Below the pieces are notes generated by a model, which ran no database searches, was not told the origin of the DNA, and worked only from the letters and a program-made list of their open reading frames with translations. The translations under genes and the position numbers were made by a program. Shown piece by piece: positions 19,140 through 21,644 of a stretch of 64,000 nt of DNA. Within the stretch, counting starts at the first letter, position 1. Each line of letters begins with the position of its first letter. Source of the stretch: Brevibacterium yomogidense (GTDB lineage Bacteria; Actinomycetota; Actinomycetes; Actinomycetales; Brevibacteriaceae); the NCBI RefSeq assembly GCF_900163715.1, contig NZ_FWFF01000008.1, positions 1 to 64,000 on the forward strand, written 5' to 3'.

Positions 19140-19598
19140 ATGCAGATCCACCTGGGCACCGACCACGCAGGCTTCGAATTCAAGGAGACTCTGAAGGCGC
19201 ACCTCACCGATTCCGGGCACGAGGTCATCGACCACGGCGCGCTCGAGTTCGACGCCCTGGACGACTACCCGTCGTTCTGCATCGCCGCCGCCGAGGCCGT
19301 GGTCGCCGCTCGTGCTGACGGCACCGACGCGCTGGGCGTCGTCATCGGCGGATCCGGGAACGGCGAGCAGATGGCTGCGAACAAGGTCGCCGGCGCCCGC
19401 TGTGCGCTCGCCTGGAACACGGAGATCGCGCAGCTGGCCCGTGAGCACAACGACGCGTGGCTCGTGTCCGTCGGTGCGCGTCAGCATGAGGAGGCCGATT
19501 CGATCGCGATCGTCGATGCGTTCATCGCGACTCCGTACAGCGACGATGAGCGTCACAATCGTCGGATCGGGCAGATCGCCGCGTACGAGTCGCGCTGA
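19140..19598 (+). CDS. rpiB: Ribose-5-phosphate isomerase B
   Basis: A 152-residue RpiB/LacAB-type isomerase that interconverts ribose 5-phosphate and ribulose 5-phosphate in the pentose phosphate pathway. Family blocks are G-T-D-H-A-G-F-E-F-K at the N-terminus, G-G-S-G-N-G-E-Q-M-A-A-N-K phosphate-binding loop, and A-R-C-A-L-A-W-N with N-D-A-W-L-V-S-V-G-A-R. Actinobacterial RpiB uses Glu of G-N-G-E rather than Cys as base, as seen here. Its last 77 bp overlap the end of the converging DUF418 gene, and its terminator hairpin lies inside that gene. Confidence 0.95.
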   Translation: MQIHLGTDHAGFEFKETLKAHLTDSGHEVIDHGALEFDALDDYPSFCIAAAEAVVAARADGTDALGVVIGGSGNGEQMAANKVAGARCALAWNTEIAQLAREHNDAWLVSVGARQHEEADSIAIVDAFIATPYSDDERHNRRIGQIAAYESR

Positions 19599-20880
19599 GT
19601 GCGTGACTGATCGCCTCGAGCGGCCCGCGGCGCATGACGCCGCGGGCCGCTGTCGTCTGCCAGGCGAGCGCGAAGGCGATCATGGCGGTGACGACCACCA
19701 CGACGGCGATGAGGGTCATCGCGATCCGGTGATCGGGGAAGCGGCCCGCGAGTCCCAGGCCCCACCCGTAGAAGAGCGCACCGGCGAGAAGATTCTGCGC
19801 CACGTAGACGCTCAGGGACATGCGACCCACTGCGGCGGCCCACCGTCCCGCGAGGGTGTGCGCGGCACGGGTGCGGGCGATGTGCGCGATGAGGCCGAGC
19901 AGCCCCAGGGCGACGAATGGTGCAGTGAGATAGCGCTGCAGGAGGATCCCGGACGCGAACCCGGTGAAGCCCAGGACGATATCGATCGGAAGAGCGCACG
20001 CACCGATGATCATGAGGCGCCTGCGCAGCGGACCGCCGTGCGAGGTGAAGACTCCCCGGTCATAGAGGCGAGCACCGACGAGGAAGAGGCAGACTCCCAT
20101 CGCCAGAGTGAGGACCGGCTCCGCGCGGAAGATGAGTGAGTGATCGAGGCGGAAGAGCGCGAGGTCGAGGAATGATCCGTCCTGGTGCACCGCTGCTGCC
20201 TCTCCGGTGGGGTCTGTGGCGGCAGTCGGAGGGGCGACCGGTGTGAGGACCAGTGCGGCCAGGAGCAGCAGCCCACCCGCATGGATGAGGCCCGCGCACC
20301 ACGTCCAGACGCGTGCGGTGCGAGGTGAGCCCGCGATCAGCGCCGCGACGATGAAGCCGGTGAAGGCATAGCCCATGAGGATGTCGAATTCCGCGACGAG
20401 GACGAAGTTCACCGCGCCGTCCAGCAGCAGAATGAGTGCGCGCGGAGCGTAGGAGCGCAACCAGTCTCTGCGGCGCTCGCCGGATGCCTGTCTGTCGCCG
20501 CCCGCCTGTCTGCGATTCCACGCGGCGTGCTGGATGGTCAGTCCCATGCCGAACACCATCATGAGCAGGGCGAGGAACTTCCCATTGGGGAGTCCCGCCG
20601 CGAGTCCGTAGAGGAAGAGCTCGGCGTCAGTGTCGATCCCTGCGAGCGGGTCGACGAGTGAGCCGAACATCCCGGCCGGATGCGTGAAGAGCCAGACGTT
20701 CGTGCCGAAGGTTCCCAGCACTGCGAGGCCTCGAACGATGTCGAGGCCTGCTTCTCGACGAGGTCCGGTGGGAGGAGACGCGTTCAGCGGACCACTGTCG
20801 GTGGCGGTTGTCGCGTCTGCCGGAACTATTGGGGTTGTCGCGTCTGCTGGTGTGCTCGCCAGGCGACGGGAGGAACTCAT
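19522..20880 (-). CDS. DUF418 polytopic membrane protein
   Basis: A 452-residue membrane protein with about ten hydrophobic helices. It starts I-V-R-G-L-A-V-L-G-T-F-G-T-N after a disordered leader of ~45 residues and ends with the family block R-G-P-L-E near residue 428. This matches DUF418 proteins, which are related to membrane acyltransferases; no substrate is known. It is divergent from a TetR gene with two operators between them, so it is very likely the target of that regulator and may export or modify a toxic compound. The -10 box lies 7 nt before the ATG, suggesting a leaderless transcript. About 24 extra residues after the family end overlap rpiB, as though the original stop had been lost. 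Confidence 0.85.
   Translation of the reverse strand: MSSSRRLASTPADATTPIVPADATTATDSGPLNASPPTGPRREAGLDIVRGLAVLGTFGTNVWLFTHPAGMFGSLVDPLAGIDTDAELFLYGLAAGLPNGKFLALLMMVFGMGLTIQHAAWNRRQAGGDRQASGERRRDWLRSYAPRALILLLDGAVNFVLVAEFDILMGYAFTGFIVAALIAGSPRTARVWTWCAGLIHAGGLLLLAALVLTPVAPPTAATDPTGEAAAVHQDGSFLDLALFRLDHSLIFRAEPVLTLAMGVCLFLVGARLYDRGVFTSHGGPLRRRLMIIGACALPIDIVLGFTGFASGILLQRYLTAPFVALGLLGLIAHIARTRAAHTLAGRWAAAVGRMSLSVYVAQNLLAGALFYGWGLGLAGRFPDHRIAMTLIAVVVVVTAMIAFALAWQTTAARGVMRRGPLEAISHALSATRTRRSARSDDCDAHRRCTESR
19619..19651. terminator. Terminator hairpin inside the DUF418 coding region
   Basis: A perfect 14-bp stem (19619-19632 with 19638-19651) closes CATGA, 21 bp after the rpiB stop. On the other strand the same bases encode the conserved R-R-G-P-L-E block of DUF418, so rpiB termination and protein coding share this DNA. 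Confidence 0.75.
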
Positions 20881-20887
20881 GACTCAG

Positions 20888-20916
20888 ACAATACGGACGT
20901 ATTGCCTGCAGTGCAA
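20888..20916 (-). promoter_or_regulatory. DUF418 gene promoter
   Basis: On the minus strand TTGCAC (20916-20911), a 17-bp spacer and TATTGT (20893-20888). Seven bases separate the -10 box from the ATG at 20880, which predicts a leaderless message. Operator 1 overlaps the -10 box and operator 2 overlaps the -35 box. Confidence 0.65.
20889..20904. promoter_or_regulatory. TetR operator 1
   Basis: CAATACG and CGTATTG flank a 2-bp centre (GA): a perfect 7-2-7 palindrome. It is repeated 25 bp to the right with a different centre. Location between a TetR gene and its divergent neighbour is typical for TetR-family operators. Confidence 0.75.
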
Positions 20917-20930
20917 TACGCCCGTATTGG
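20902..20930 (+). promoter_or_regulatory. tetR gene promoter
   Basis: On the plus strand TTGCCT (20902-20907), a 17-bp spacer and TATTGG (20925-20930), predicted start near 20937. The -35 box touches operator 1 and the -10 box lies in operator 2, so the regulator should repress itself. Confidence 0.55.
20914..20929. promoter_or_regulatory. TetR operator 2
   Basis: CAATACG and CGTATTG flank CC: the same 7-2-7 palindrome as operator 1, 25 bp away start to start. A further lone half site GTATTG lies at 20933-20938. Confidence 0.75.
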
Positions 20931-20981
20931 TTGTATTGCGGGCCGCACGGCCCGCTGCTCGAGGACGCTATCGTGAGGGCC

Positions 20982-21644
20982 ATGACGGACGACGGCTCAG
21001 GCATCACAGGCGGACGCTCCCGGATCCTCGAGGCTGTGGTCGACGTCATAGCGGATGAGGGGATCGACAGGGCGAGTGTTCGGGCGGTCGCACAGCGTGC
21101 CGGCGTGTCGATCGGTGCGGTCCAGCATCACTTCAGGACGAAGGCTCAGATGCTCGAGGGCGCCATGGCTCAGCTCACGGCGCTGTTCGAGGCTCAGGCT
21201 CGTGACGATGCCGCCGCTGGTGCGGAAGCTCCTGACAGCCCCGGCGGCTCTGCGCGACAGGACAGTCCCGGCGACCCTCTCCTGGTGCTGCGCACGATGT
21301 GCATCGGCTTGGCGCTCGTCGATGAGGAGTCCCGCCGGCTGGGTGGGGTGTGGCTGGACTTCGTGGCGACGTCACGTGTGAACGAGGGGCTCGCTGGGAT
21401 CCACCGGAGTGCATGGGCACGGCTGCGAGGTCTCTTCGCGTACCTCATCTCGGAGATCGAACCGGGACACACGGGCCCGGAATCTGCAGCGGATCTCCTC
21501 CTCGCCTCGCTCGACGGGATCGCGGTCTCACGGATGACGGAGCCGCAGTACATGACAGCGGAACGGGCCCAGCGCCTCGTCGAGGCGGCGCTGGTCGCAG
21601 TCCGTGCGGTGGAGGGCCGCCGCTCGAGCGGTGCGCAGTCGTGA
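20982..21644 (+). CDS. TetR-family transcriptional regulator
   Basis: A 220-residue repressor. The N-terminal helix-turn-helix (I-L-E-A-V-V-D-V-I-A-D-E-G, then S-V-R-A-V-A-Q-R-A-G-V-S-I-G-A-V-Q-H-H-F) is a clear TetR DNA-binding domain, with the recognition helix ending V-Q-H-H-F. The C-terminal helical domain matches the BetI-like group in general shape, with a ~25-residue Gly/Pro/Ser insertion near residues 75-100. ATG at 20982 gives the normal start; a GTG nine bases upstream is possible. It is transcribed away from DUF418 across two identical operators. Confidence 0.9.
   Translation: MTDDGSGITGGRSRILEAVVDVIADEGIDRASVRAVAQRAGVSIGAVQHHFRTKAQMLEGAMAQLTALFEAQARDDAAAGAEAPDSPGGSARQDSPGDPLLVLRTMCIGLALVDEESRRLGGVWLDFVATSRVNEGLAGIHRSAWARLRGLFAYLISEIEPGHTGPESAADLLLASLDGIAVSRMTEPQYMTAERAQRLVEAALVAVRAVEGRRSSGAQS

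Follow-up and report, generated by a model that had tools for sequence, protein, structure and literature searches.

The control region of the Tn10 tetR/tetA pair carries two operators, tetO1 and tetO2, that overlap the promoters of the gene pair (PMC3037858). The locus described here, which lies within a 64-kb stretch of Brevibacterium yomogidense DNA analysed over its whole length (the window), resembles that system in placing a TetR-family gene beside a membrane-protein gene, in possessing two operators and in the overlap of these operators with the promoter of the target gene, an overlap found in six species. It differs in its operator sequence and in its target, which is an efflux pump in Tn10 and here a DUF418 acyltransferase-like protein; furthermore, the DUF418 mRNA is probably leaderless and the candidate tetR promoter is not conserved. 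From comparative evidence we consider it highly likely that the locus acts as a local switch of the tet-operon type, in which TetR would repress DUF418, and probably itself, until released by a ligand. The principle of such a switch is ordinary; a widespread family of TetR and operator that guards membrane proteins of several kinds was found in no open paper. Literature searches yielded no paper on a DUF418-TetR pair, a DUF998-TetR pair or the letters of the operator motif, and for a possible parallel with Bacillus LmrA, QdoR and YxaH none of the open papers listed bore on DUF418. The value of the switch lies in its defined operator and in the tie that it provides between membrane proteins and a TetR subfamily not yet characterised. 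Proteins of the DUF418 type occur widely, most of them without an assigned substrate. The switch offers a direct handle on them, being compact and combining a defined operator with a regulon of one locus and a sensor dedicated to it, in that the ligand freeing TetR should indicate which substrate or stress the DUF418 protein handles.

The two operators are exact 7-2-7 palindromes kept in six Brevibacterium species: operator 1, proximal to DUF418, is CAATACGGACGTATTG (20889-20904) and operator 2, proximal to tetR, is CAATACGCCCGTATTG (20914-20929). A preliminary description of this DNA had reported CAATACG-2-CGTATTG twice, 25 bp apart, which is exact when the distance is taken from start to start; the intervening gap is 9 bp. 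A lone palindrome of this form is unremarkable, since perfect 7-2-7 palindromes number 16 in the window, where shuffles average about 10.6; two that share their arms and lie no more than 50 bp apart occurred in none of 60 shuffles of the window. The same description had advised searching the genome for the motif, and across the 3.29 Mb of the host genome (24 contigs) the two copies in the switch were the sole matches with two or fewer mismatches, every other match having three. A degenerate consensus allowing one mismatch returned the same two copies. Neither the exact-arm nor the degenerate scan yielded further sites that would point to a wider regulon in the host genome, and the regulon of this TetR is therefore, as far as the motif tells, a single locus.

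Two further sequence features lie close to operator 2. The half site TGTATTG (20932-20938), which had been counted as a third part of the switch, is present in the window and missing from the five other Brevibacterium species, and we reject it as a component. A perfect GC-rich inverted repeat, GCGGGCCGCACGGCCCGC, occupies window positions 20938-20955 on the 3' side of operator 2, in what is likely the tetR 5' leader; it is not kept in the other Brevibacterium species compared.

The geometry of the DUF418 promoter was established by comparison within the genus. B. senegalense (the closest of the relatives compared), B. luteolum, B. gallinarum and B. sp. CS2 each possess the same divergent DUF418/tetR pair, with two operators at exactly 25 bp. 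A sixth species, L127, was found afterwards by protein search with the DUF418 query and served as a held-out test of the pattern drawn from the window and the four named species; it agrees in every detail, with two perfect sites at 25 bp and the arrangement TTGCAC-17-TATTGT-7-ATG. On the minus strand of the window, the -35 box TTGCAC (20911-20916) and the -10 box TATTGT (20888-20893) are separated by 17 bp, and the -10 box stands 7 nt from the ATG, which starts at 20880. Across the six species the promoter reads TTGCAC-17-TAyTGT with 6-7 nt to the ATG. The invariant columns of the alignment on the DUF418 strand comprise the palindrome cores, the CAC that follows operator 2 and the T that follows operator 1, so that both hexamers are conserved beyond the palindromes, while the linker between the conserved elements is mostly variable. 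The -10 box shares five of its six bases with operator 1 and the -35 box shares its TTG with operator 2; the same operator end thus furnishes, in one copy, the TTG of the -35 and, in the other, the TATTG of the -10, and the 25-bp operator period is in effect the geometry of the promoter. A consensus scan demanding nine of 12 promoter matches found no promoter in the intergenic switch region, and the DUF418 promoter accordingly rests on conservation rather than on consensus strength. The earlier proposal of a promoter with a 17-bp spacer, overlapped by both operators, is confirmed in its geometry, and the overlap extends to all six species. Its companion proposal of a leaderless DUF418 message is probable, because 6-7 nt separate the -10 box from the ATG in every species. 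Leaderless messages are common in related actinobacteria (PMC4633059).

Conservation of the operator reaches well beyond the genus. The survey took in 80 TetR relatives encoded in named genomes, of which 28 are encoded divergently from a DUF418 gene (29 with the window), in Microbacteriaceae, Kineosporiaceae, Geodermatophilaceae, Mycobacteriaceae, Hoyosellaceae, Corynebacteriaceae and others. Within 230 bp around the tetR start, all 29 divergent pairs carry at least one CMATACRNNYGTATKG-like site with two or fewer mismatches to CAATAC-N4-GTATTG, a result that none of the Markov shuffles reached. When no more than one mismatch is allowed, the regions near tetR (18.6 kb) contain 45 sites, as against nine in 408 kb elsewhere. 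The consensus of 39 sites is CMATACRNNYGTATKG, from which targets in other actinobacteria can be predicted with nothing but their sequence. Among the TetRs that have the site, the recognition-helix region, GVSIGAVQHHF.TK, hardly varies.

Outside Brevibacterium most pairs possess a single operator of variable position. It lies just before or on the DUF418 -10 box in Geodermatophilus, Kineococcus and Mycobacterium, and directly past the start codon, in codons 2-7 of DUF418, in Microbacteriaceae; both positions are occupied, 34-35 bp apart, in a Corynebacterium bin and in Serinicoccus. A site constant in sequence and shifting in position behaves as would be expected of a repressor operator, and its movement around a probably leaderless promoter presents a clean case of binding-site turnover.

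The site was also found in all four held-out loci with an adjacent TetR and in neither of two DUF418 genes lacking an adjacent TetR of this kind, which dismisses the operator as a general feature of DUF418 genes. One of these two is L131 and the other is the second DUF418 gene of the host genome (locus L120, G000:C19:68520-69014). Since the site is conserved with this TetR and absent where the TetR is absent, the identification of the palindromes as operators of the adjacent TetR, made in the preliminary description from the window, is strongly supported by the co-occurrence seen across Actinobacteria. We regard it as extremely improbable that the palindromes instead bind another factor or form hairpins, with an incidental link to TetR: palindromes of similar size are fairly frequent in the window, as given above, but the site follows the TetR across DUF418, Ddn-like, DUF998 and small membrane-protein neighbours and does not occur at the two DUF418 genes that lack the TetR. 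The presence of the same site at such pairs in many other actinobacteria means that TetR very probably controls its neighbouring DUF418 gene.

The regulator itself is encoded by tetR (20982-21644, plus strand; 220 aa). It scores above the cut-offs of both TetR_N (46.6 bits; cut-off 24) and TetR_C_6, the BetI-type C-terminal domain (61.4 bits; cut-off 27), and its model has nine helices in a TetR fold that matches TetR structures. An N-terminal helix-turn-helix together with an all-helical ligand domain places it among the TetR/AcrR regulators. Among solved structures, RHA1_ro04179 (2np5) is nearest to it in both sequence and fold; with this protein, as with TetR_C_6 regulators, it has DNA-binding and ligand domains in common. 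It differs from BetI, the choline repressor, and we reject that identity because its equivalog score of 67.7 bits falls far short of the 201.3-bit cut-off.

How tetR is itself transcribed is less clear-cut. The preliminary description had placed a tetR promoter at 20902-20930 on the plus strand, and its hexamers, TTGCCT (20902-20907) and TATTGG (20925-20930), are present with a 17-bp spacer; the assignment is nevertheless doubtful. In the other Brevibacterium species the hexamers show no conservation beyond the palindrome bases, and the sixth base of the proposed -10 box across the six species is G, C, C, A, C and T, so that the final T is lacking in the window and in five of six species overall. 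The accompanying claim that one TetR silences both genes is supported by comparison on the DUF418 side and is weakened for tetR. Autoregulation through operator 2 remains probable, being made plausible by the position of that operator. A competing account, possible though somewhat doubtful, is that the palindromes serve DUF418 only and that tetR has a downstream promoter of its own, constitutive or weakly autoregulated, with a -10 box such as TATCGT (20969-20974, plus strand). The tetR ATG follows this sequence after 7 nt, and the account would agree both with the poor conservation of the hexamers near operator 2 and with the operator of Microbacteriaceae, which falls within the start of the DUF418 coding sequence and not beside tetR. 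On the other hand, only about 50 bp separate operator 2 from the tetR start, a comparable sequence (TAGTGT) precedes tetR in B. senegalense alone, and autoregulation is usual in divergent TetR pairs. A possible alternative tetR start is an in-frame GTG at 20973, with GAGGA upstream.

The target gene occupies 19522-20880 on the minus strand and encodes a 452-aa protein resembling transmembrane acyltransferases of the YeiB/HGSNAT type. It belongs to DUF418/YeiB by its PF04235 score (72.2 bits; cut-off 23.6). The preliminary description had called the role of DUF418 proteins unknown, which is in part outdated, as DUF418/YeiB has been placed in the transmembrane acyltransferase (TmAT) superfamily, characterised by a DxxR motif to which the HGSNAT branch adds an important Asn later in the first helix (PMC12423673). 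Residues D47, R50 and N61, in the DxxRx10N spacing of this motif, are invariant in all 29 DUF418 proteins. The structural model is confident (mean pLDDT 86), and HGSNAT structures are the only ones to match it well, taking the top eight PDB places with a probability of 1.00; the fold agreement is moderate rather than tight (TM about 0.46, E about 1e-3). The protein thus shares with the YeiB/HGSNAT branch the DUF418 domain, the motif and an HGSNAT-like model (PMC12423673) and departs from it in sharing no more than 13-15% identity with HGSNAT when the structures are matched. Given the DxxRx10N residues and the matching model, its activity is probably acyl-CoA-dependent acyl transfer across the membrane.

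Comparison thus establishes the sequence of the operator, its co-occurrence with this TetR and the geometry of the DUF418 promoter. From these features we infer binding, repression, autoregulation, a ligand and an enzyme activity that would combine as follows. One TetR dimer would occupy each 16-bp operator, and the bound repressor would obstruct RNA polymerase at both the -35 and -10 boxes of DUF418, because the operator ends supply the TTG of the one and the TATTG of the other. A ligand, probably small and lipophilic, would enter the TetR pocket and cause the repressor to leave, whereupon DUF418 would be transcribed as a leaderless mRNA and its membrane-protein product, the putative acyltransferase, would act on an envelope substrate; tetR would probably be autoregulated through operator 2. 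Repression is the usual role of TetR proteins. Some members of the family do activate, and the regulator might do so here, or might repress one gene and activate the other; this is very unlikely, as the operators, which span the two promoter hexamers in Brevibacterium and fall within the first codons in Microbacteriaceae, occupy positions suited to blocking polymerase.

The TetR subfamily also adjoins other membrane proteins, mostly with the same operator. These include membrane-anchored relatives of F420H2-dependent quinone reductases (Ddn-like; L058, L074, L080, L093 and L097) and, at L041, a DUF998 protein. At L046, L051, L054, L070 and L075 the neighbour is an unnamed membrane protein of about 200 aa that shares an operon with tetR. 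Gene contexts cluster on the TetR tree, with nine changes as against 24 in shuffles. It is tempting, if speculative, to picture a widespread TetR subfamily of actinobacteria, with the operator CMATACRNNYGTATKG as its defining mark, that might sense one shared envelope-related signal and induce a different membrane protein according to lineage: a DUF418 acyltransferase, a Ddn-like nitroreductase anchored in the membrane, a DUF998 protein or an unnamed small membrane protein.

Several observations were made on individual members of this subfamily. The unnamed protein of about 200 aa lies 5' of tetR in L051 (1798-2502), L054 (1801-2502), L075 (1888-2493) and L087 (1861-2493), with two operators 22-27 bp apart upstream; the L051 and L075 copies returned no Pfam match. 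In a Rhodococcus clade (L060, L062, L064, L066, L067, L077 and L079) the operator is degenerate or missing, and several members adjoin a tRNA-synthetase-like gene (FAPSPSGDLHLGNLRTA). Two Streptomyces relatives, L083 and L102, have the site CGATACG-CGTATCG at about 2427, and the recognition helix of L083 reads QRCF in place of QHHF, which in this single case may possibly reflect co-variation of protein and site. Finally, in pairs with membrane-anchored Ddn-like or DUF998-like proteins a candidate start codon, the ATG within GTATGG, lies inside the operator CCATACnnnnGTATGG or directly next to it, as in L074 (about 2456-2490), L057 (about 2468) and L093 (about 2424-2458).
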